64,000 nucleotides of DNA from Arthrobacter sp. AQ5-06 (GTDB lineage: Bacteria > Actinomycetota > Actinomycetes > Actinomycetales > Micrococcaceae): NCBI RefSeq assembly GCF_003287955.1, contig NZ_QMKP01000010.1:62001-126000 (forward strand), written 5' to 3'. This document shows, piece after piece, positions 44,008 to 58,966 of the stretch (the first letter of the stretch is position 1; the number at the start of each line of letters is the position of its first letter). Under the pieces are notes generated by a model. That model did no database searches, was not told the origin of the DNA, and worked only from the letters and a program-made list of their open reading frames with translations. The position numbers and the translations under genes were made by a program.

Positions 44008-45167
44008 CAGCGGAAACCGTCCTGGCCCGCATCAACGTCATGGAACCCTGGCTCGGCGACGACGAAACCCGCGCCGTAGCGGACGTCCTCGCCTCCGGCA
44101 TACTGGCGCAGGGCCCGAAAGTGAAGGCGTTCGAGGCGCAGTTCAGCGCCCTGCACGAGGTGCGCCACGCCGTGGCGACTTCCAGCGGTACCACCGCACT
44201 TCATTTAGCGCTGGTAGTGGCCGGAATCGGCCCAGGCGACGACGTCGTTGTACCGTCGCTGGCTTTCATTGCTACAGCGAATGCTGTTACGTACGTCGGG
44301 GCGCGGCCGGTGTTCTGCGATGTAGATCCCGTAACCGGCACGGTGACTGGATCTACGATCCGGGCGGCGATGACCCTTGACACCCGTGCAGTAATTGTTG
44401 TGGACCAGGGCGGTGTACCCGTTGACCTGGAACCGGTCCGCGAGCTGTGTGAACGTCACGAAATCACCGTGGTTGAAGACGCCGGTTGCGCTGTGGGTTC
44501 TCAATACAAGGGCCGGCCAGTGGGTACCGGCGCGGACGTTGCCGTGTGGTCGTTCCACCCGGACAATGTTCTGACCACGGGCGAAGGCGGCATGCTGACA
44601 ACCCACCGGGCGGACTGGGCAGCACGGGCCCGGAGCCTCCGCACCCATTCCGTGAACGTGCCCGCGGCGGACCGCCGCCGATCCCGCATGGCCGCGCCGG
44701 AGGTGTACGTCGAAGTTGGTTTCGATTACCAGATGACGGATCTGCAGGCCGCCATCGGCATTGTGCAGCTGGGCCGGCTGCGCGAGATCGTGGCGCGCCG
44801 CCGGGAGATCGCCGCACGTTATGAGGCAGGCCTTTCCGGCCTGGCCGGGCTCCGGTTCGTGGCCGACCCACCGTACGGTACCACCAACTTCCAGTCCTTC
44901 TGGCTCGAAGTCCTCCCGGGCTTCGCCACGGACCGCGAAGGGCTCCTGGCCCGTCTGGCCGATGCCGGAATTTCGGCGCGCCGCGGCGCCATGGCGGCAC
45001 ACCGTCAGCCTGCCTACCGGTGGCGCGATACGGGTAACGCAGGGCTCCAGACCACCGAACGGCTGACCGACCGGACCCTGGTTCTCCCGATTTTCCACGG
45101 CCTGGACAACGTGGGCCTGAACCGGGTCATGAACAGCGTACGGGCGGCCGCCGGGGTACGCCGGTGA
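44004..45167 (+). CDS. DegT/DnrJ/EryC1-family aminotransferase homologue with Asn in place of the PLP lysine
   Basis: A 387-residue protein of the sugar-aminotransferase fold (PglE/ArnB-like). It has ILAQGPKVKAFEAQFSALHEV, ATSSGTTALHLAL (phosphate binding), VVPSLAFIATANAVTYVGARPVFCDVDP and EDAGCAVGSQYKGRPVGT. The Schiff-base motif, normally SFHPxK followed by TTGEGG, reads SFHPDNVLTTGEGG, with Asn188 (codon AAT, 44565-44567) where lysine should be. The protein is otherwise full length and intact. It cannot act as a normal transaminase. It may be inactive, or do other PLP chemistry like ColD-type dehydratases, which have His there. A decayed PglD-type gene overlaps its end by 4 bp. Confidence 0.85.
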   Translation: MTAETVLARINVMEPWLGDDETRAVADVLASGILAQGPKVKAFEAQFSALHEVRHAVATSSGTTALHLALVVAGIGPGDDVVVPSLAFIATANAVTYVGARPVFCDVDPVTGTVTGSTIRAAMTLDTRAVIVVDQGGVPVDLEPVRELCERHEITVVEDAGCAVGSQYKGRPVGTGADVAVWSFHPDNVLTTGEGGMLTTHRADWAARARSLRTHSVNVPAADRRRSRMAAPEVYVEVGFDYQMTDLQAAIGIVQLGRLREIVARRREIAARYEAGLSGLAGLRFVADPPYGTTNFQSFWLEVLPGFATDREGLLARLADAGISARRGAMAAHRQPAYRWRDTGNAGLQTTERLTDRTLVLPIFHGLDNVGLNRVMNSVRAAAGVRR

Positions 45168-45594
45168 GCGAACTGGAGCTGATCGCAGCCAGCGGGCTGG
45201 CCCGGGAAGTCCTGACCATGGTCCGCGCCAGCGGGCAGTACGACGTCGTCGGGCTGCCCGACGACGTCAAGGAAATGGCCGGCGTCACCCTGGACGGCGC
45301 GCCGGTGCTGGGGACCATCGTGACTCTGACAGCCTCCGTCACGCTCGGGCCCATGTGGTGGCCATGCCGTCCGTGACCTTTACGCACGACGACGTGGCGG
45401 ATTTCGCGACGTTCGCGGCCGGTGTGTCGCTGGGCGGGGAGTCCGGATCGGCCGGGCGGCCTGCCTGGGGCTGAACTGCAGCGTCCGTGAACGGACGTCG
45501 GTGGGGTCATACGCCACTGTGGGCAGTTTTAAGCAACGTGCCCGACGGCGAAACGTGGGTCGGCGTCCCGGCCCACCTCACCGAACACGGATAG
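45164..45594 (+). pseudogene. Decayed PglD/NeuD-type sugar O/N-acyltransferase
   Basis: Three separated pieces of one acetyltransferase in different frames. From 45164: ELELIAASGLAREVLTMVRASGQYDVVGLPDD, then DGAPVLG, the PglD-like N-terminal Rossmann part. From about 45355: [30 protein letters not shown], the left-handed beta-helix start. Near 45534-45594: NVPDGETWVGVPAHLTEHG and a stop, the usual C-terminal end. The sequence between is shortened and out of frame; the intact family is about 200-215 residues. It probably worked with the adjacent aminotransferase in amino-sugar (bacillosamine-like) synthesis. Confidence 0.75.
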
Positions 45595-45734
45595 GCGAGC
45601 GCCAGAAGCGCCGGGCGCAAGGGGGCGCTCCGCAGAAGTAACTTCCGTTACACGATTGTGATTATTCGCGTCCGGTCCTGTACGGTCGATCGGTGGGCCG
45701 CCCCAGCCGGCCCCAATCCCGGATGACGTCTAAC

Positions 45735-45885
45735 TCTGCCACCTTCGGGATCCACTAGGTTTCAGGCAGAGGCGGGGGACCCGAGTGTCTCGGGCATGGC
45801 AGAAACATGCCCTCGGGGTGAAGCCGCTTTGCGCGGCCGGATGACCTCATCCGAACCCGACAGCTAACTCCGCAGGCGTTGAGAG
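45735..45885 (+). ncRNA. ydaO/yuaA-type cyclic di-AMP riboswitch
   Basis: The leader of the GH16 gene contains the conserved blocks of the ydaO motif in order: GGCGGGGGACCCGAG, GGGGTGAAGCCGC, CCGAACCCGACAGCTAAC and CCGCAGGCGTTGAGAGG. Hairpins join them (GCATGGCAGAAACATGC and GGATGACCTCATCC). In actinobacteria this riboswitch turns off cell-wall hydrolase and resuscitation-factor genes when c-di-AMP binds. The exact ends are approximate. Confidence 0.9.
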
Positions 45886-45895
45886 GTAATCACCC

Positions 45896-47008
45896 ATGTC
45901 TGCATCCAATGATCAGCCGCGCACCGACGCGCGCCCTCAAACCCAAGAAGCCGCGGCGCCTACCCAGCGCCGCGCGCTATTGAAGAAGTCCCCGAACCGA
46001 GCACGGTCCCGGCAGGTTATGACCCTGACAGCGGCCGCACTGGTCGCCCTGCTGGGTGTTGTCTCCCTAGGCCAGGTCACCGAACAGGCGCCCCAAAGCG
46101 CCGAGTTGAGCCGCGTCGCGGACACGTCCAGCCGGGCCGAGGCCCCGGGGCAGGTCAAGCGCAACACCAGCCCCACGCCGGCACTGCCGGCCACGGACCC
46201 GACGCCTGTTGCAACCACGGAACCTGCACCTTCACCCGAAACGTCGACAGCTGCGCCCGCACCAGCCCCGACCACGACCGCCACCGCCACCGCCACCACA
46301 GCTGCGCCGGAGCCGACACCCGTTGTGGCACCACTGGCCTCAACCGGCGCCCTGCCTGTGGGCGTCCCCGGGGCCTGGACCATGGCATTTTCGGACGAGT
46401 TCAACGGCACGGGCCTTGATGCCGCCAAATGGTCGAACTGCTGGTTCTCCCCCACATGCGGCACCATGAACAAGGTGACCACCAGCCCCGGCAACGTCGC
46501 TGTCGCCGGGGGCAACCTCGTCCTATCTTTGGCATCGTCGAGCTCAGGTGCGCTGGTCTCCACGAACCCGCGCGGCGGAGCCGGTACCGGCTACGAATTC
46601 ACAACGGGCTATGTCGAGGCCCGGATCAAGTTCCCCGGCGACGGCACGAACCTCTACAACTGGCCTGCGTTCTGGACAAACGGCCAGTCGTGGCCCACCA
46701 ATGGCGAGAATGACATCGCGGAGGTCCTGAGCGGCAAGATGACCGTGAATTATCACTCAACATCCGGCGCCCACAACCAGGGGACCGTTCCCGGCGACTG
46801 GGGCAACAATTTCCACACCTTCGGCCTGCACCGGACGGCGAACTCCTCGGACGTCTACTTCGACGGCGTCAAGGTGAAGTCCTACTCCACCGACGACGGC
46901 GGCGCACCGCAGTACATCGTCCTCAATGTCGGCGCGTCGGGAAGCAGCCCGGCGGCGTACGGAGCTGCGTCGCAGGTCCAGGTTGATTACGTGCGGGCCT
47001 GGAAGTAA
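45896..47008 (+). CDS. Exported glycoside hydrolase family 16 protein under riboswitch control
   Basis: A 370-residue protein. It has a long basic N-terminus with a signal/anchor helix (VMTLTAAALVALLGVVSLGQV, about residues 41-61), a Pro/Thr/Ala-rich linker (about 85-150), and a C-terminal GH16 beta-jelly-roll (FSDEFNGTGLDAAKWSNCWF onward). The catalytic motif E-x-D-x-x-E is intact as GENDIAEV (about residue 270), and WPAFWTNG supplies substrate aromatics. It likely cuts or transfers beta-1,3/1,4-glucan-type polymers at the cell surface. It starts 10 bp after the c-di-AMP riboswitch and is followed by a terminator. Confidence 0.88.
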   Translation: MSASNDQPRTDARPQTQEAAAPTQRRALLKKSPNRARSRQVMTLTAAALVALLGVVSLGQVTEQAPQSAELSRVADTSSRAEAPGQVKRNTSPTPALPATDPTPVATTEPAPSPETSTAAPAPAPTTTATATATTAAPEPTPVVAPLASTGALPVGVPGAWTMAFSDEFNGTGLDAAKWSNCWFSPTCGTMNKVTTSPGNVAVAGGNLVLSLASSSSGALVSTNPRGGAGTGYEFTTGYVEARIKFPGDGTNLYNWPAFWTNGQSWPTNGENDIAEVLSGKMTVNYHSTSGAHNQGTVPGDWGNNFHTFGLHRTANSSDVYFDGVKVKSYSTDDGGAPQYIVLNVGASGSSPAAYGAASQVQVDYVRAWK

Positions 47009-47026
47009 ACAGCGTCGCTACGGTGA

Positions 47027-47064
47027 GCGGACGACGGCGGGACCTCCCGCCGTCGTCCGCTTTC
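47027..47064 (+). terminator. Intrinsic terminator after the GH16 gene
   Basis: 16-bp perfect arms (GCGGACGACGGCGGGA and complement) with a 2-base spacer and a short T-tract, 18 bp after the stop. Confidence 0.9.
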
Positions 47065-47157: not shown

Positions 47158-48324
47158 ATGAAGCTTCTGTACATCACAGAAAGCGTGCCCAACCGGGACC
47201 CCATGCTGGGGGACGGCAGTTCCATGATTCCGTTCGAGGTGCTGCTGAACCTTCCCGGAGAAGTGGCAGTGACGCTTCTGACCTTCGCCGGACCGGTGGG
47301 CGTGCCGGCCGAAATCAGGTCGCGCTGTAAGGCCGTGCATGTGATGCCCACGCGCAGCCGCGCCTGGGCCACCGTCCTGTCCGTCTTTGGCCTGACCGGG
47401 CTCGGAAAGCACGAGCGGTCCACCGCCAAAGCTATTGCCATCGCGGGACAACTCTCCGGCCAACACGACGCCACCCTGATCCATGGTCCGCACGCCCTGT
47501 TCCTGGCCAAGTCGGTGAGCGGCCCGCTGGTTTTGCAGACTGTGGATCCTTGGTCGGTCCGCGCCGCGATGGACACTGCCATTGCCGGCACCCTCCGCCC
47601 GGCCTACCGCGCCCGTGAGTTCCTTGCCCTCCTTGCCGAACGGCGCTTGCCGTCGCGGGCGCGGCTCCTCACCGTGGGCGCCGCGGATGCGCTCACCTGG
47701 TCGGAGCGGCTGGCGCGGCCCGTCAGGAGCGTTCCCAACGGGGCCGAGGAGTCGGTGCGCGAAGCCGCCAGACAGAACTGTCCCGTGGCCTGTTTTGTTG
47801 GCAGCCTGAACTACGGTCCAAACATCGACAGCGCAAACGTCCTGATCAGGAAGATCGCCCCACTCGTGTGGCAACAGGTTCCGGATGCCAGGTTTGTGCT
47901 CGCGGGCCGGCGCCCCGATGCCTCAATACAAGCCCTGGCCGGCCCCCGCGTGGAGGTCCTCGCCAACGTGCCGTCAGTCCTGGAGGTCTTCCACTCCGCG
48001 GACGTCGCAGTCTTTCCCGACGAACACGGTGTCGGCATCCGGAACTCCGTGCGCGAAGCCCTTGCCGCCGGCCTCCCGGTGGTAGCGACGCCGGTGGCCG
48101 CCCGCGAGCAGGAACCCCACCCCTTGCTGGCCGTCGAACCGGACACGGAGGGGTTCGTGGATCACGTAGTGCGGCGGCTGACCGCGCCCGGACGGCACCG
48201 GACCCCACCCGCTGGCGGGTCCGTCAGAACGTGGCGGACTGTTGCCGAGGACTATCTGGACGAGGTGGGCGGCGCGATCCGGTCCGGCGGCACCGGCCTC
48301 CCGTCCGGAAAGTCACCAGCATGA
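47158..48324 (+). CDS. Glycosyltransferase, GT4-like (GT-B fold)
   Basis: A 388-residue glycosyltransferase. The N-terminus MKLLYITESVPNRDPMLGDGSSM is acceptor-domain-like. The C-terminal donor domain has VACFVGSLNYGPNIDSANVLIRKIAPLVWQQVPDARFVLAGRRPD and the conserved end DVAVFPDEHGVGIRNSVREALAAGLPVVATPVA, where a Glu/Val-Gly-rich loop replaces the classic E-x7-E. It resembles the family annotated as sugar transferases in PEP-CTERM/EpsH-type exopolysaccharide loci. It overlaps the flippase gene by 4 bp (ATGA). Confidence 0.82.
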   Translation: MKLLYITESVPNRDPMLGDGSSMIPFEVLLNLPGEVAVTLLTFAGPVGVPAEIRSRCKAVHVMPTRSRAWATVLSVFGLTGLGKHERSTAKAIAIAGQLSGQHDATLIHGPHALFLAKSVSGPLVLQTVDPWSVRAAMDTAIAGTLRPAYRAREFLALLAERRLPSRARLLTVGAADALTWSERLARPVRSVPNGAEESVREAARQNCPVACFVGSLNYGPNIDSANVLIRKIAPLVWQQVPDARFVLAGRRPDASIQALAGPRVEVLANVPSVLEVFHSADVAVFPDEHGVGIRNSVREALAAGLPVVATPVAAREQEPHPLLAVEPDTEGFVDHVVRRLTAPGRHRTPPAGGSVRTWRTVAEDYLDEVGGAIRSGGTGLPSGKSPA

Positions 48325-49772
48325 CGTACGCACCCGGGGATCTGACCCGGACCGGTGTCCGCGGCGCAGCGTGGCAGGGGCTGGCCTTCGTCGCCGGAAA
48401 GATGATTGTCCTGGGCACCACCATCGTCCTGGCCCGGCTGCTGTCCCCCGAGGAGTACGGCCTGGTGGCACTGGCGCTGGTCCTCATGGCCTACGCCGAA
48501 ACCGTTGCCGACGCCGGAGTGGCACAGGCGCTGGTCTATTTGCCGCGTACAGCCGTCATTGCGCGCTCCGCCTTGTTCATTTCCGTGCTGCTCGGAGCGG
48601 TCCTGGCCTCCGCCGCCGTCCTGGCCGCGCCCTGGATCGCAGGCCTTTTCAACCTTCCGGACGCGGCGCCCCTCGTCCAGGTGCTGGGGGTTTCGGTGTT
48701 GGCCACGTCCTTCGGGGCGGTCCCGGAAGCCCTGCTGCGACGGGACCTGAAGTTCAAGCCGCTGACCGCAGCTCCCGTGATCCGGGCCGCCACCATGGGA
48801 TCGGTGACCCTGGTTCTGGCGTTCACGGGCCACGGCGCGTTGTCACTGGCCGTCGGCACGGCTGCGGGGTCCGTGGCCTATGCGCTCACGTGCTGGTTCC
48901 TGGTCCGCAGGAATGCGCCTTGGCAGATCTGGCGGGTGGGCAGGGACGCACTCCGGGCAAACATTGCCTACGGGGCACCCGTGGCGGGAAGCAGCCTGCT
49001 GGCCCGGCTGATTTTCGACGTCGACTACCTCATCATCGGGCTGTTGTTGGGAGCGCAGGCTCTGGGCTACTACACGTTGGCCTTCCGGCTTCCGGAGGCC
49101 CTGATCCTCAACGTCTTCTTTATACTCTCCACCGTCCTTTTCCCGCTCTACGCGCAGGTGCGCACGGATCCGGACAGGCTCCGCGACGGCTATCTGAAAA
49201 GCGTCCAGATCCAGTCCCTGTACGGGGTCACTGCCGGCGTGGGCCTGGCCGTCCTGGCACCGGTCCTGGTCCCCCTCCTTTTCGGCCAGAAATGGACCGA
49301 CGCTGTGCTGCCACTGGTCTTCCTGGCCCTGTACGCTGCCGTGCGGTCGCTGGGCGCGGGCGCCAACGACGTGTACAAGGCGCTCGGACGGCCCGGGCTC
49401 TCCATCGCAATCTCCATCGTCCGGCTCGTGATTCTCGTGCCAGTCCTGCTGGTCGCCGCGCAGTGGGGCATCGTTGGCGTGGCAGCTGCGCAGCTTGCCA
49501 CGGCCTTTGTTTTCGCCTGCGGAATGCAGGCGGTCGCAGCCGGGGTGATCAAGATCAGGGCACGGCGCTTGGTGCGCGCCGCCGTGCCAGGCGTGGTCTG
49601 TGGGGCTGCTGTGGCAGGGGCCGGCCTGGTCACGTTGGCCCTCCCGATCCTTGGTCCCTTGGTAACGACGGCCGTCGTCATGCTTCTGTCCGTCGGCCTG
49701 GTTTACGCGATTCTGCGCCTGGGATTCCCGTCCTTGTACCGTGAGCTCCTGCAGTTCCTAAGGCGTGTCTGA
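48321..49772 (+). CDS. Polysaccharide flippase, Wzx/MOP family
   Basis: A 483-residue protein with about fourteen membrane segments. The start DLTRTGVRGAAWQGLAFVAGKMIVLGTTIVLARLLSPEEYGLVALA is diagnostic of polysaccharide exporters (PST/Wzx branch of the MOP superfamily), and RLPEALILNVFFILSTVLFPLYAQ is a further family block. It would move lipid-linked repeat units across the membrane. It is coupled to the GT4 gene and converges on the minus-strand polysaccharide operon, with 16 bp between the stops. Confidence 0.88.
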   Translation: MTYAPGDLTRTGVRGAAWQGLAFVAGKMIVLGTTIVLARLLSPEEYGLVALALVLMAYAETVADAGVAQALVYLPRTAVIARSALFISVLLGAVLASAAVLAAPWIAGLFNLPDAAPLVQVLGVSVLATSFGAVPEALLRRDLKFKPLTAAPVIRAATMGSVTLVLAFTGHGALSLAVGTAAGSVAYALTCWFLVRRNAPWQIWRVGRDALRANIAYGAPVAGSSLLARLIFDVDYLIIGLLLGAQALGYYTLAFRLPEALILNVFFILSTVLFPLYAQVRTDPDRLRDGYLKSVQIQSLYGVTAGVGLAVLAPVLVPLLFGQKWTDAVLPLVFLALYAAVRSLGAGANDVYKALGRPGLSIAISIVRLVILVPVLLVAAQWGIVGVAAAQLATAFVFACGMQAVAAGVIKIRARRLVRAAVPGVVCGAAVAGAGLVTLALPILGPLVTTAVVMLLSVGLVYAILRLGFPSLYRELLQFLRRV

Positions 49773-52689: not shown

Positions 52690-53559
52690 TCAGGGCGCGT
52701 AGGCATACTGCACCGCCCAATCAATCTGCAAATGCCCGGACGTTCCTGCAGCGGGATAGGTTCCGTTGGCGCGGTCCGAGGTCTCAGCCTGCAATGTCCA
52801 CCGCATCGGAGTATCGGGAACTCCTGACGGCAGCGTCGTCTGATCGATGAGTCGGCCGTCGAAGAGCCACTGGACCTTCCCGGGTGTCCACTCCGTCGTC
52901 GCCACATGCCAATCGCCCGGTCCTGTAGGCGTAAAGATGCGCTCCGGAGGATCGAACTTCATCGCGCCGATGGCCAGTGAGCCCTTTACCGCTGAGCCGC
53001 CGTAAAGGGGCCCATCGAGTCCACCCTCGGGCCAGTCAATTTCACCTTCATTCCAGTTATCGCTGACCGGCCACAAAAGAAAGGCAATTTTGTAACCGGG
53101 CATGGAATCGTATCTGAATCGGATGGAGTACCGGCCATATGTTTGCCCAATATAACCAAAGGGAATGACGCTCGCCACCCGCGGGGAGCCGGCTGCAGCA
53201 TGGAGAAAGTAGTCCAGTGTTCCATCACTTACTGAAAGGACTTCATCCGGCGCGTATGACCCTCTGCCCGAGCTGTCGGCGAAGCCGGAATATCCCCTCA
53301 TTTCAGCGCCGTAGACATCGCCCACCCTTCCTGGGCTTGCCACCGTCGTAAAATCCTGCGCACCCGTCTGCTTCCATCCAGGAAGATCACCCACGGGCAT
53401 TTCTGTCGACCTTCCTGTGATCAGGGCTGGAATCCAGACTGCCACCGCAATTAGTGCGGCTGCCGCCGCAATGGCAGGCCCAAGACGTTTGCGGAACAGG
53501 GAGCTCCTAACCTGCTGACTTGAATCTATAGATCCTGACCGTATCGTTGCTGAAGACAT
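52690..53559 (-). CDS. Membrane-anchored glycoside hydrolase family 16-like protein
   Basis: A 289-residue protein with an N-terminal helix (LGPAIAAAAALIAVAVWIPALI) and a GH16 jelly roll. The catalytic motif EGEIDWPEG (E-x-D-x-x-E) is intact, preceded by GYKIAFLLWPVSDNWN and followed by DWHVATTEWTPGKVQWLFDGRLI. The ATG at 53559 is preferred; it overlaps the end of the upstream membrane-protein gene by 53 bp, and no later start is available. It may trim or link the polymer made by this operon, as lichenase/licheninase-like or transglycosylase enzymes do. It differs strongly from the GH16 protein at 45896. Confidence 0.82.
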   Translation of the reverse strand: MSSATIRSGSIDSSQQVRSSLFRKRLGPAIAAAAALIAVAVWIPALITGRSTEMPVGDLPGWKQTGAQDFTTVASPGRVGDVYGAEMRGYSGFADSSGRGSYAPDEVLSVSDGTLDYFLHAAAGSPRVASVIPFGYIGQTYGRYSIRFRYDSMPGYKIAFLLWPVSDNWNEGEIDWPEGGLDGPLYGGSAVKGSLAIGAMKFDPPERIFTPTGPGDWHVATTEWTPGKVQWLFDGRLIDQTTLPSGVPDTPMRWTLQAETSDRANGTYPAAGTSGHLQIDWAVQYAYAP

Positions 53560-55771
53560 TCTCGACACCGACTCCATTCTCAAGCAGACCCTCCAGCTCC
53601 GGCAAATATTCGGCCTCAAAGCGCTTCTTTTCTACCGCCTGACGTTTTTGTTCCTCAGAAATAATTACGTAGTTGTTTTCCGCTCCGCGCAGGTGGTCAG
53701 CGTATGCGCGCAATCCTTCAACGCTGATATTTCCATCGGCACGCCTGAAATAGTCGACCAGGGACGACACACTTCCCCATTTGAGATAGTGCGGGTAATT
53801 TGGTCCCACGAGAAGGGGGAAGAAATACTTCGTATCAAAAACGAGGTCGCCGGATTTGGTGTTCACATCAAGCCATTGGCTAGCGACGACGTCGTCTTTG
53901 GAAACGCGGTAATCCGCCTCAGGCTGGAAGTGCACCACGGTGAACAGCATGGCCATTGCAACAAGACTGGCACTCGCACCAATGACCGCCCTGCGGGTCC
54001 GCACGGGGCCGGACCAGAACAGCCAGGCAATGCCTATGGAAAGCCAGGGCAAGGCGAAGAGGAAGACCCTGAAGCGCGCCTCGCCGCCGTACGACTGCGC
54101 CAGCAGTCCCAGTGTCGGAGCGAAGGCCAGCCAGGCAACAACCAGGGTGGTGCGCACGTGGCCATGCAGCAAACGGCGGATAAAGCCCGCAACTGCCAGG
54201 ACGCCGGTGCCCAGCGTGAGGACCACAGCCAAGTGTGCCAGGGTCTGGCCGGTCAGCACCCAGGCGCCCAAGGTCAGCGGGTCGGTGGCCGGCGGTTTGT
54301 AGCCCGTGTTGGCGAATATGTTGAAGCCGCTGAAGAGTCCGTATTTTCCTTTGACATAGGCAAGGTTGGGAATAAAGTATGCCAGCGGTAGTGCGAGCAT
54401 TGCCGGACCCAACCAACGCGGCCTGAAATAGCCTGACATAAAGAGGGGGAATAGCCCCAGGACCGCCAAGTAGGGCGTCAACTGATGACTGACTACAATC
54501 ACTGCCTGAATTATCAGAATGGCCACACATGCCACAAGTTGCCCCGGAGAACCGGGCCGTTCCCAGATGCTGGGTATGGTCATCGGGTGTCGCTGCTTCA
54601 CCCGTTGCACCATTCGCGAATTCCTGATCCGCTTTTCGAAGCCGGCCATCCACTTGAAAGGTACCCCCCTCAGGAAGGTCAGGGCGATGAGGCACATGGC
54701 GAGGTACAGGGAGTAGGAATAGGACTGCGGGGCGTAGTAATTCTGGTTCACCCAATTGGCAAGGGTGAACACTAGCGTTGCAGTCCAATAGACGCGCGCC
54801 CTGTCGGAGATCGTACGCACGATCGCGAGGACAAGAACCGCATCGACCAGGGCAAATCCGGTTTCGGCCCACGCAGCGTAGTCAAGGGCGTTCCGATATC
54901 CCATCACTTCGCCCAGGTAGGCACTGAGGGCAAAAAAGCCAGGCCAACGGTTGTAGATGTCTATCGAGGGATCCACTTGCCCGGTGGCCGAGATGAAGTT
55001 CGTGACGGCGATGTGCTTGTAGGTCCAGGGAAACCGGGGGACCTCGGCGAGCAGGCCAGCTGACGAATAGAGGACAACGACGAGGCTGGAGAATGCGGCG
55101 CTCATCAGCAGGGTTGAGAACGTCTTCCTGGCCACAATGCCGCAAACACACGTCCCCACTATGAGCCCCACGGCGATGTACCAGGCGAGCGGGAGCTCGG
55201 GTAGCAGCCCGAAGTCGCCCAGCCTCCCGTTTCCAGCAGTGGCCAGCCCATAGACCCACAGGTCAGCCGCCGCAGCGAGGCTCAGCCAAGGCACCAACGC
55301 ATTGAACCGGGAGCGCCCATGCGGTTCCCGTCCTCCGGCGGCGCTGGGCCGGGGGCCCCCTGGTGCGGCGCCCCGAACGAAGGTTCCCGGCAAGTAGGGG
55401 CCTGGCTTCAGGACGATGAAGCAGACTGAGGCAAGGACGATGACGGCCGCCCCCTGGCGGGGATACCAGAACCCTGTCCACGCCATCGCCAAGGCCAGGG
55501 TGGTGTAGACCGCGGCGCTGGCAGCCACCGTCCAGACAAGCCGGGACGCCCGGTCCGCGGCGGGAAGCCGGGACAGCACCACCCACCCCGGCAACGCCAG
55601 GCACACCACAAGCTTGAAGGCAGCCAAAGGTGCTCCGCCGATGTCCATGAGGATCAGGAAAGCCGCAGCCAGTCCGAGTACCGCCAGCGCGGCGTCGAAG
55701 TACCGTGGCCGCCTTGCCGACGTTTGCGGGTGCGGCAGCGGGGAAACATCATCTCGGATTAGCAGAGCCAT
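53507..55771 (-). CDS. Large polytopic membrane protein, putative polymerase or GT-C glycosyltransferase
   Basis: A 754-residue protein with about fourteen to sixteen membrane helices. A periplasmic-type C-terminal tail of about 120 residues (YRVSKDDVVASQWLDVNTKSGDLVFDTKYFFP onward) follows. The pattern of a large hydrophobic body plus a soluble C-terminus recalls GT-C enzymes or Wzy-like polymerases. The loop HIAVTNFISATGQVDPSIDIYNRWPGFFALSAYLGE could hold the acidic catalytic residues, but no diagnostic motif was recognised. The ATG at 55771 has AGGAGG 8 bases upstream. It follows the GT2 gene by 72 bp in the operon. Confidence 0.8.
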   Translation of the reverse strand: MALLIRDDVSPLPHPQTSARRPRYFDAALAVLGLAAAFLILMDIGGAPLAAFKLVVCLALPGWVVLSRLPAADRASRLVWTVAASAAVYTTLALAMAWTGFWYPRQGAAVIVLASVCFIVLKPGPYLPGTFVRGAAPGGPRPSAAGGREPHGRSRFNALVPWLSLAAAADLWVYGLATAGNGRLGDFGLLPELPLAWYIAVGLIVGTCVCGIVARKTFSTLLMSAAFSSLVVVLYSSAGLLAEVPRFPWTYKHIAVTNFISATGQVDPSIDIYNRWPGFFALSAYLGEVMGYRNALDYAAWAETGFALVDAVLVLAIVRTISDRARVYWTATLVFTLANWVNQNYYAPQSYSYSLYLAMCLIALTFLRGVPFKWMAGFEKRIRNSRMVQRVKQRHPMTIPSIWERPGSPGQLVACVAILIIQAVIVVSHQLTPYLAVLGLFPLFMSGYFRPRWLGPAMLALPLAYFIPNLAYVKGKYGLFSGFNIFANTGYKPPATDPLTLGAWVLTGQTLAHLAVVLTLGTGVLAVAGFIRRLLHGHVRTTLVVAWLAFAPTLGLLAQSYGGEARFRVFLFALPWLSIGIAWLFWSGPVRTRRAVIGASASLVAMAMLFTVVHFQPEADYRVSKDDVVASQWLDVNTKSGDLVFDTKYFFPLLVGPNYPHYLKWGSVSSLVDYFRRADGNISVEGLRAYADHLRGAENNYVIISEEQKRQAVEKKRFEAEYLPELEGLLENGVGVENVFSNDTVRIYRFKSAG

Positions 55772-55843: not shown

Positions 55844-57154
55844 TCATGACGTCTTGGCAGCCCCCGCCCAGCGTTCAAGGAGATAGTTGAGCGGTCCGCG
55901 CGCCAGGGAGTACAGCTCCAGCCGCAACACCTGGGCGAGTTGCTGATCCCAGGAATCATGGCCAAGGCCGGGCTCCGCTGCCGGCCGGCGTGATGTGCCC
56001 GCGCTTTGCAGGAAATTCCAGGCGACGCGCGGAGTGCGGGCCAGCGCCAGCCGGGCCGTGTGAGGGTTCAGGAGGATTTTGGTGAGCCAGGCACCAAGTC
56101 CGCTGCCATAGCCGCGGGCCTGGGCGCTCAGTTCCTCCAGGCCACCACGGTGGCGGTGCCAGGCAATCGCGGACGGCTGAACCACCAGGCTGTATCCCTC
56201 AAGGATCACCCGGGTGAACATGTCAATGTCTTCACCCCCGCCGGTGCGGGTTCCGACTCCCAAAGCGTTGTCGAAGCCGCCCAGGCTCAGTGCCGTGCGG
56301 CGATCCAGCGCGAAATTCGCACCCGTTCCGAAAGCGCCGGGACAGAAGGGGAACTTCGGAAGTCCTTTGGGCGGATCGGCTAAGGAGTAGATCTTGGGCG
56401 CAACGCTTTTGGACCAGCTGACGCGGTCATCGAAGTATCCCTGCGCCGGCGACCGCAGTTCGCCGGCCGGCACGAGTCCCGTGACACAGGCCGTGCCTGG
56501 CATGCGATCGAAACCAGCGGCGATTTCGTGCAACCACGCCTCGTCGACAACGACGTCGTCATCGGTGAAGGCGACGATGTCGCCCTGTGCGCGACGGAGG
56601 CCCGCATTCCGTGCCTTGGAGAGCCCCGGGGCAGGCTCGGTGATGAGCGTCATCCGGGGGTCGTCAAACTCGTCGCGCACCATATTGGCGGTTTCGGCAG
56701 TCCTTGGCGCATTGTCCACCACCAGTACATCGAAATTTGGGTAGCCAAGATCCAGGATGGCAGTCAGGGCCCCCCGGAGCAGTGCGGCCCGGTCCCGCGT
56801 GCAGACGACAACCGTGACGGACGGAGTTGATGACACTCCGGGGGCCACTGGTGTAACGGCCGGAAGGCCCGCGACAGCCTCCTCCAGAACCGCCCTCTCA
56901 AGCATCCCTCCGGTGGCCTCCACATCCACGAAGCCTCGGACAGCGGTCCCTTGGCGCACCAAAAGCCGTGCACGGTCGTAGCCTGCGTGGTTGAGCAACT
57001 GCAATCGGGTGTGATCGGAGAGGCGATCCAGATCAACGGCGCCGATCCACCGGGCTCCCGACCACTCCGGCGCGGCGGCGCTGTCCATAGCCGGTGCCAA
57101 CTGAAAGGCAGACCGCTCCTCGAAAGGCATGAGCTCACCAACACGCTCACTCAC
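55844..57154 (-). CDS. Family 2 glycosyltransferase
   Basis: A 436-residue GT2 with an N-terminal extension of about 120 residues resembling mycofactocin/actinobacterial sugar transferases, then the GT-A core: PSVTVVVCTRDRAALLRGALTAIL, the donor motif AFTDDDVVVDEAWL (about residue 225), and GGGEDIDMFTRVILEGY with the acid base. No membrane helix. The GTG at 57154 overlaps the upstream gene's stop (GTGA) and is preceded by GGAGG, which decides the start. Confidence 0.87.
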   Translation of the reverse strand: MSERVGELMPFEERSAFQLAPAMDSAAAPEWSGARWIGAVDLDRLSDHTRLQLLNHAGYDRARLLVRQGTAVRGFVDVEATGGMLERAVLEEAVAGLPAVTPVAPGVSSTPSVTVVVCTRDRAALLRGALTAILDLGYPNFDVLVVDNAPRTAETANMVRDEFDDPRMTLITEPAPGLSKARNAGLRRAQGDIVAFTDDDVVVDEAWLHEIAAGFDRMPGTACVTGLVPAGELRSPAQGYFDDRVSWSKSVAPKIYSLADPPKGLPKFPFCPGAFGTGANFALDRRTALSLGGFDNALGVGTRTGGGEDIDMFTRVILEGYSLVVQPSAIAWHRHRGGLEELSAQARGYGSGLGAWLTKILLNPHTARLALARTPRVAWNFLQSAGTSRRPAAEPGLGHDSWDQQLAQVLRLELYSLARGPLNYLLERWAGAAKTS

Positions 57155-58149
57155 TGAACTTCCCTCCACGGTGCGCCTACAAGGGCAGTCCCGGACCGCG
57201 GGCGGCCCTCGACGTGGGCTATCCGGCGTCCGCGTACGTACCCGGCTGCGGTGCATGCCAGGACCGCAATGACAGCGCCCGCCCGACCCAGCCCCTGTGG
57301 GTTGTCGCCCCGGCCCCAATCGCGCACTCCCGCAAATACGGCCCGTGGCAGGACGCTGCGCACGTACCGCCGTTCCGGGCCCAGAGCCCGTTTGTGGCCT
57401 ACCACCCGGCTGACCTGGGCTTTGGAGATCCCTTCGGACCAGGAACGCGACAGCATGTAGCGCACTGTCCCCCTGTCCGCCGGCACGTGGTGGCGTACCA
57501 CAGCCGCAGGTTCATAGACGATCCGTGATCCAGGTGCGCCCATCTTGGAGCGGATGCAGATCTCTGTCTCCTCGCAGCCGAAGGGCAAGGTGCCCTGGCG
57601 TCCCAGCGAGATGTTGAAGCCGCCAACCTGACGGAGGACTTCAAGCCGGAAGGACATGTTTGCGCCGATGACATTCCGGACTTCGGAAGCCACCTTGGGC
57701 ATTCCGCGGTGGCTGCATCCGACGATCCAGTCGAGCTCTTCCCCGAAGTAGCCCGGCCGGCCCGTTTCCCACACCGGTTCGACGCGTCCGCCGACGGCCA
57801 GCACGTCAGGATCGTCGTAAAAGGCAAGCAGCCGTTCAAGCCAGTCCGGCGCGGCCTCGGCATCATCGTCAAGGAAGGCCACAATGTCTGAGTCCGCCAG
57901 GCCGACGCCGGTGTTGCGTGCTCCGGAAAGCCCGCGGGGTCCGCTGCTCTCCACCACCGTCACGTCATCGACGATCTCGATGAGCCGCTCGTAGAGGTCC
58001 TCGTTGTGGTCAATCACCACCAGGACTTCCTGGGGGGCAACTGACTGGGCCCGGACAGACTCTATGACGTCCAGCAAGAGGTCCCAGCGCCGTTCAGTGT
58101 AGGCACAAATGACGATCGACACGGTGGGACCTGCAATGCGATCCAGCAT
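57151..58149 (-). CDS. Family 2 glycosyltransferase
   Basis: A 332-residue GT2. It shows VSIVICAYTERRWDLLLDVIESVRAQ, the nucleotide/metal motif IVAFLDDDAEAAPDWLERLLAFYDD (about residue 95) and CEETEICIRSKM (acceptor acid). A C-terminal helix (AGAVIAVLACTAAGYVRGR) may anchor it to the membrane. The ATG at 58149 has GGGGAGG five bases upstream and begins 1 bp after the previous gene's stop. It overlaps the next GT2 gene by 4 bp. Confidence 0.88.
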   Translation of the reverse strand: MLDRIAGPTVSIVICAYTERRWDLLLDVIESVRAQSVAPQEVLVVIDHNEDLYERLIEIVDDVTVVESSGPRGLSGARNTGVGLADSDIVAFLDDDAEAAPDWLERLLAFYDDPDVLAVGGRVEPVWETGRPGYFGEELDWIVGCSHRGMPKVASEVRNVIGANMSFRLEVLRQVGGFNISLGRQGTLPFGCEETEICIRSKMGAPGSRIVYEPAAVVRHHVPADRGTVRYMLSRSWSEGISKAQVSRVVGHKRALGPERRYVRSVLPRAVFAGVRDWGRGDNPQGLGRAGAVIAVLACTAAGYVRGRRIAHVEGRPRSGTALVGAPWREVQ

Positions 58150-58150
58150 G

Positions 58151-58966
58151 CTAGCCTCCCCGAACCAGGGAGAGGACTGTCTTGGGGTCCGTGGGCGTCC
58201 TCGGGAAGCTGACATTTGCGTAGGTATACTTCACCCGGCGGAGCGCTTCGGGCCTGGCACCGGCGGTGGGCGCCTCCCACATGGTGCATTCGCGTACCAG
58301 CGTGCCCAGTACCCGCCACCCGTCGCGGAACGTCTGCAGATTCGACGCGCCGGAGATGCGGTCCAGCTCCAGGCTGGGGACTTCTGCAATCCGCAGACCG
58401 GCCTTGGCCGCATGGACAATCAGCTCGGTCTCAATTTCAAAGCCGTCCGATTCCAGCTGCAGGATCTCCAGGCATTCCCGTCGAAACGCTATGTATCCAT
58501 AGCAAAGGTCGGAGTAGTTGCTGTGCAGGACCGCGTTGGCCAGCCCGGTCAGCGCGCGGTTGCCTGCCTTCCTGAGGCGGGTGAGGTCTTCCGACCCTCC
58601 TCCCGTGACGTGGCGTGAGCCTTTAACGAAGTCGTAATCGTGCTGGAGCGGAGAAACAAACCAGCCAATCTCTTGGGGATCCATGCTCCCATCCGCGTCC
58701 AGCATGACGATGATGTCTCCTGAGGCTGCAGCAAACCCGGAGCGAAGGGCCACGCCCTTTCCCTTGCGCTGCTCATTGACGATGACGAGGTCGTCGCGGA
58801 TTGCTTGTGCTACGCCCACTGTGTTGTCCGTGGAACGGCCATCGACGATCACAACCTCGTCCACATACGAGGGCATCCGACGAAGGACCCACGGAATATT
58901 TTTCGCTTCGTTCAGGGTTGGGATGACGACGCTGACTGTGGCCCTAGCGGCTTCTATAGCCGGCAT
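58151..58966 (-). CDS. Family 2 glycosyltransferase, polyprenyl-phosphate type
   Basis: A 271-residue GT2 of the dolichol-phosphate-mannose-synthase type: TVSVVIPTLNEAKNIPWVLRRMPSYVDEVVIVDGRSTDNT, IIVMLDADGSMDPQEI (DxD, about residue 90) and KAGNRALTGLANAVLHSNYSDLCYGYIAFRRE. It may charge an undecaprenyl-phosphate carrier or start the repeat unit. The ATG at 58966 is preferred since the fold begins nine residues later; a GTG at 59014 would add 16 residues. First gene of the minus-strand polysaccharide operon. Confidence 0.87.
   Translation of the reverse strand: MPAIEAARATVSVVIPTLNEAKNIPWVLRRMPSYVDEVVIVDGRSTDNTVGVAQAIRDDLVIVNEQRKGKGVALRSGFAAASGDIIVMLDADGSMDPQEIGWFVSPLQHDYDFVKGSRHVTGGGSEDLTRLRKAGNRALTGLANAVLHSNYSDLCYGYIAFRRECLEILQLESDGFEIETELIVHAAKAGLRIAEVPSLELDRISGASNLQTFRDGWRVLGTLVRECTMWEAPTAGARPEALRRVKYTYANVSFPRTPTDPKTVLSLVRGG

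Follow-up and report, generated by a model that had tools for sequence, protein, structure and literature searches.

A GH16 gene of Arthrobacter sp. AQ5-06 is preceded by a leader that, judged from its sequence, is almost certainly a real c-di-AMP switch for this gene. The class of the riboswitch is canonical, and no report of this type of target was found in the open-access literature. The full explanation that is proposed here, which has a good probability of being correct, is that a ydaO-class c-di-AMP riboswitch acts as a translational OFF switch on a secreted GH16 enzyme, which would be co-regulated with envelope hydrolases. The features on which this explanation is based, all of them in the window (the whole stretch of 64,000 nucleotides that was analysed), are collected in Table 1.

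The Rfam search matches RF00379, the c-di-AMP (ydaO/yuaA) family, over the full length of the model on the forward strand at 45743-45892, with 66.0 bits (E 4.6e-13) against a gathering threshold of 38 bits. RF00379 is the sole Rfam family over threshold in the 64 kb window, a rerun with lax filters returned the identical score, and the match ends three bases 5' of the GH16 gene. The preliminary description of this DNA had reported a complete set of ydaO blocks and had named the Rfam ydaO-yuaA covariance model as a check, and both points are borne out, as the score is high over the whole model and the blocks GGGGGACCC, GGGGUGAA, and CGAACCCGACAGCUAA are all found, invariant or near-invariant over 13 orthologous leaders. 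A chance match is ruled out by the 66-bit score together with the conservation in 13 species. The genome contains one diadenylate cyclase domain, in a 384-residue frame consistent with DisA, which makes c-di-AMP plausible as the ligand. The score, the 13-species leader, the covarying helices, and the encoded DisA thus lend good support to the earlier proposal that the riboswitch controls the GH16 gene. The distance of 10 bp to the start codon given at that time fits the spacing of the Shine-Dalgarno sequence, but 15-17 nt separate the end of the last aptamer helix from the ATG. Likewise, the proposed start at 45735 is nearer to the true 5' edge than the 45743 of Rfam, but the aptamer begins about 10 nt earlier.

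Table 1. Features of the GH16 locus and its leader (positions in the window).
Feature	Position	Strand	Evidence or remark
MtrA-type direct repeat GTTAC-N6-GTGAT	45647-45662	+	Conserved in 13/13 ortholog promoters
Likely -10 element TACGGT	45681-45686	+	Promoter prediction
True P1 5' strand GACGUC	45725-45730	+	Pairs with GGCGUU 45875-45880
Hairpin CUCUGCC/GGCAGAG	45734-45740 / 45765-45771	+	Covaries across 66 actinobacterial leaders
P2 5' strand GCGGGG	45772-45777	+	Pairs with CUCCGC 45868-45873
Lineage-specific extension hairpin GGGCAUG/CAUGCCC	45792-45812	+	79% of cells paired in 13 GH16 leaders
Helix GGG/CCC	45816-45818 / 45856-45858	+	Encloses hairpins 45824-45836 and 45839-45852
Putative pseudoknot loop CCUC	45845-45848	+	Complements GAGG of Shine-Dalgarno, 45883-45886
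Shine-Dalgarno GAGAGG	45881-45886	+	Invariant in 13 orthologs; ends 9 nt before ATG
GH16 enzyme, secreted or membrane-anchored, 370 aa	45896-47008	+	PF00722 38.9 bits, cut-off 22
Intrinsic terminator after GH16	47025-47062	+	17-pair stem and T-rich tail
Glycosyltransferase group 1, conserved neighbour	47158-48324	+	Adjoins GH16 in most species
Polysaccharide flippase (PF13440), conserved neighbour	48321-49772	+	Paired with the glycosyltransferase in most species
Three GT2 genes	55844-58966

The Rfam start leaves out the 5' strand of P1 and most of the hairpin at 45734-45771. The P1 strand ends 3 nt 5' of the CUCUGCC hairpin arm, and at the outermost position of P1 that was examined, 26 leaders have CG, 15 have UA, and 14 have AU (55 of 66), with a mismatch in the other 11. 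The hairpin itself occurs in at least six versions among the 66 distinct actinobacterial leaders (CUCUGCC/GGCAGAG, CCCUGCC/GGCAGGG, CCCUGUC/GACAGGG, CACUGCC/GGCAGUG, UAUUGCC/GGCAAUA, and UCCUGCU/AGCAGGA); its percentage of pairing is inflated because the arms were picked by complementarity, which affects neither its fixed spacing from P1 nor the P1 counts. With the upstream P1 strand and the covarying hairpin, the switch spans approximately 45725-45886. Across the 13 GH16 leaders, a structure that combines the Rfam helices with the extension hairpin and the pseudoknot leaves 90% of the cells paired, compared to 38-45% when it is slid by 1-3 columns. Pairs altered on both sides number only five in the GH16 leaders alone, since these leaders are similar; in the extension hairpin, two pairs are altered in this way.

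The survey of other Arthrobacter that had been suggested finds the leader before orthologous GH16 genes in 13 species-level Arthrobacter/Pseudarthrobacter genomes (L038 and L116 are apparently duplicates of L008 and L040). An ortholog of this type is present in 5 of 101 sampled genomes of the genus, including the present one, so the pairing is kept in its clade and accessory in the genus. None of a further 75 GH16 loci from the genus and family has its own leader, which rules out a general pairing of GH16 with the riboswitch; the sister GH16 genes (L010-L015 and L174) lack one. Of the 197 Micrococcaceae genomes sampled, 157 contain the riboswitch itself. A single match near a GH16 gene, at L140, was rejected as a leader owned by GH16, as it belongs to the intervening NlpC/P60 gene. 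At this locus (L140/L178, G265:C9, approximately 113270-116850), the riboswitch leads an M23-NlpC/P60 pair, and some 450 bp 3' of this pair, in the same orientation, follows a GH16 gene of the lipoprotein type that belongs to a different subgroup, possibly a second, independent link of GH16 to the c-di-AMP riboswitch regulon. In Pseudarthrobacter sp. Fe7 (L043, from 4559), the GH16 frame is interrupted behind an intact leader, by either real decay or an assembly error.

The product of the gene was described as an exported GH16 protein, and its sequence agrees with this. A hydrophobic segment at about residues 42-60, predicted to serve in export or anchoring, is followed by a Pro/Thr-rich linker and a catalytic domain (about 150-370), whose motif ENDIAE (E271, D273, and E276) aligns to GEIDIME of PDB 6xof. 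The active-site motif ExDxxE is intact, and it is invariant in eight aligned orthologs. Its designation as a beta-glucan/galactan-type enzyme stands at the level of the family only, the nearest solved relatives being endo-beta-1,3(4)-glucanases and laminarinases, to which sequence similarity in PDB profile matches is weak. The AlphaFold model (mean pLDDT 31.6) is too poor for a fold search.

The strong terminator 3' of the gene, an equivalent of which is found in 9 of the 10 orthologs read, makes GH16 a single-gene unit. The polysaccharide-locus setting was rightly recognized: the neighbours in Table 1 are accompanied by a second GH16 gene (52690-53619, minus strand, PF00722 30.7 bits), which has no riboswitch and lies apparently within an operon of the opposite strand. 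In orthologs with enough flanking sequence, the glycosyltransferase-flippase pair is located downstream of GH16, with the exception of YD4 (L039), and upstream there is either a DegT aminotransferase gene or the rpsF-ssb-rpsR-rplI region. After the DegT aminotransferase gene of the window, a PglD-type acetyltransferase gene (45164-45592) is apparently broken, with a 70-residue N-terminal piece in frame and a remainder that seems to continue in another frame.

Transcription of the GH16 gene, predicted to start near 45693, would begin at a promoter with an MtrA-type box that is common to two wall-hydrolase-type genes. The direct repeat of this box resembles the MtrA consensus published for Streptomyces and Corynebacterium (PMC5650626, PMC3353115), the genome has an MtrA gene (393.7 bits, curated cut-off 300), and MtrA may occupy the box. 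The pattern GTNACNNNAWTGTGAY-N14-20-TGTANSGT has exactly three matches in the 4.14 Mb genome, each before an RF00379 copy, and the genes behind it are those for GH16, NlpC/P60, and the AggPromo_Cterm protein; the reversed pattern, used as a control, has none. As the pattern was built from these promoters, the finding is one of exclusivity, not presence. The combination of MtrA and riboswitch has a precedent in nlpC of Corynebacterium glutamicum, which is under the control of both (PMC9960051).

Four copies of RF00379 are present in this genome, before the genes for GH16, an M23 peptidase, an NlpC/P60 peptidase, and the AggPromo_Cterm protein, and elsewhere in the family, the genes behind the copies examined encode wall hydrolases or one Pro/Thr-rich protein. 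To our knowledge, the actinobacterial genes with a c-di-AMP riboswitch are nearly all related to the cell wall, and the characterized ones encode peptidoglycan hydrolases. As far as the search reached, the preliminary description was correct in setting GH16 apart from the known targets of this regulon, and no report of a c-di-AMP riboswitch with GH16, a glycoside hydrolase, or Arthrobacter was found in the open-access literature. An Rpf identity of the gene behind one copy (L004) was considered and is not supported, as NCBIfam gives AggPromo_Cterm (115 bits) and Pfam and PDB give nothing convincing. The riboswitch of this gene (G000:C43:180191-180352, minus strand) reads CAUCU at the block that is CAGCU almost without variation elsewhere, and it may bind the ligand differently. 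The promoter box and riboswitch in common with wall-hydrolase-type genes argue that GH16 is co-regulated with the envelope hydrolases, and, with the leader conserved before GH16 in 13 species, control by c-di-AMP probably extends beyond peptidoglycan-cutting enzymes, to one that acts on a different sugar polymer of the surface. Of the earlier interpretation, the link between turgor sensing and glycan remodelling is the inferred half.

In the proposed mechanism, the ligand-bound aptamer would, at high c-di-AMP, close P1 and hold a loop-tail pseudoknot, within which the loop CCUC would pair with the Shine-Dalgarno GAGAGG and block ribosome loading; at low c-di-AMP, the Shine-Dalgarno would be exposed and the GH16 enzyme produced. 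The CCUC appears to occupy the position of the pseudoknot in the solved ydaO aptamer, in whose printed sequence CUCCUUCG faces CGAAGGAG (PMC5393176). The CCUC/GAGG complement is retained in 11 of the 13 GH16 leaders and lost in the sisters L041 and L042, where CCUC is replaced (GGCAAC and GGCAGC, respectively) and the aptamer core and the Shine-Dalgarno are retained. Over 58 distinct leaders, the native loop-tail complementarity exceeds all 20,000 permutations, which ignore relatedness; the GH16 class adds little to this signal, and GH16 loops show no preference for their own tails. Folded without ligand or pseudoknot, the 218-nt leader shows no excess of stability over its shuffles (z -1.44). 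No terminator-like element is found anywhere between the aptamer and the ATG, and the aptamer tail leads straight into the Shine-Dalgarno. The missing terminator and the ability of CCUC to pair with GAGAGG make a translational OFF switch the most likely mode, and control through the pseudoknot itself is, on these sequence features, a fairly likely one.

A functional riboswitch that acts on transcription elongation by premature termination, instead of on ribosome access, is unlikely, even if premature termination was reported for the rpfA riboswitch of Streptomyces coelicolor (PMC10117811) and, with a terminator, for Firmicutes. Both the aptamer-to-ATG stretch, which is devoid of an intrinsic terminator, and the tail running directly into the Shine-Dalgarno speak against it, and so does the nlpC riboswitch of C. 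glutamicum, which represses translation and leaves the transcript unchanged, and for which pairing of the RBS by a CTCC element was proposed (PMC9960051). This translational precedent, together with the loop-tail complementarity, favours translational OFF control, rpfA notwithstanding. A leader that has decayed or no longer switches, and survives only as a source of a ribosome-binding site, is highly improbable: the pseudoknot loop is gone in two orthologs, the Fe7 ortholog has a broken GH16 frame with its leader intact, and related GH16 genes manage without a leader, but against this stand the full-length 66-bit match, core blocks that are invariant although the ortholog proteins diverge by up to 39%, compensatory changes in the helices, and a promoter box that is intact in every ortholog.

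For the substrate of the enzyme, the probabilities are closer. An endogenous envelope glycan has about an even chance of being the substrate; GH16 would then trim a polysaccharide of the surface, or an exported one, or turn it over, and this might be the polymer handled by the adjoining glycosyltransferase and flippase, much as a parallel with the rhizobial ExoK/ExsH enzymes might suggest (PMC1403797). A serious rival, if a somewhat doubtful one, is that GH16 scavenges external beta-glucan of plants, fungi, or algae and that its control by c-di-AMP reflects the osmotic or growth state, which would suit the laminarinases and endo-beta-1,3(4)-glucanases among its closest solved relatives, the soil-dwelling habit of Arthrobacter, and the accessory status of the gene in the genus (5 of 101 genomes). 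A promoter box and riboswitch in common with wall-hydrolase-type genes are less easily reconciled with scavenging, as is the glycosyltransferase-flippase pair adjoining GH16 in most species. Co-regulation with envelope hydrolases and the neighbouring genes therefore tip the balance towards a surface glycan of the cell itself.

A maximum-likelihood tree built from 90 leaders places all 13 of those before GH16 in a single group (98/57). Its sister is a pair of leaders that precede a Pro/Thr-rich membrane protein in which no domain is recognized (98/89), and both nest within the AggPromo leaders (joint clade 100/100). The two genus members concerned (L056, 1501-2760, and L060) carry this RF00379 leader of the same lineage before a protein of 368-440 residues. 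In the protein tree, the leader state must have changed twice, for instance once by gain and once by loss. The simplest reading would be that the promoter-riboswitch cassette was transferred once from the AggPromo gene lineage, which, as the leader alignment is short, we infer from the tree. A broader and more tentative reading is that c-di-AMP and MtrAB might govern the turnover of a non-peptidoglycan surface glycan via GH16. The cassette, composed of the MtrA-type promoter box, the aptamer, and the Shine-Dalgarno clamp, would have reached GH16 in a single copying event from a hydrolase gene of the aggregation-promoting-factor-like kind, and the clamp would later have been lost in two descendant species that retained the aptamer. 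The leader is a compact model for how a new gene recruits a riboswitch and for the possible direct masking of a ribosome-binding site by the ligand-stabilized pseudoknot of an aptamer, a question for which natural leaders with and without the pseudoknot exist.

Among known systems, nlpC of C. glutamicum (cg2402) is alike in the class of its riboswitch, the lack of a terminator, the proposed translational OFF control with pairing of the RBS, the additional regulation by MtrA, and a product that is a secreted wall hydrolase; it differs in that its target is an NlpC/P60 peptidase at the head of an operon, and it was tested experimentally, whereas the present target is a GH16 single-gene unit (PMC9960051). 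The ydaO-type riboswitch of S. coelicolor rpfA belongs to the same class and also precedes the gene of an actinobacterial secreted hydrolase, but this is an Rpf muralytic enzyme, and the reported control is by premature transcription termination (PMC10117811). With ydaO (kimA) of Bacillus subtilis, the leader has in common the aptamer blocks and the position of the loop-tail pseudoknot (RF00379), whereas the Bacillus target is a potassium importer under terminator-based control; compared to it, the covarying 5' hairpin is longer in the actinobacterial copies, and their tail doubles as the Shine-Dalgarno. The rhizobial ExoK and ExsH, endoglycanases linked to a polysaccharide cluster and acting on exopolysaccharide that the cell itself makes, offer a functional analogy, and riboswitch control of them is not described in the review (PMC1403797).
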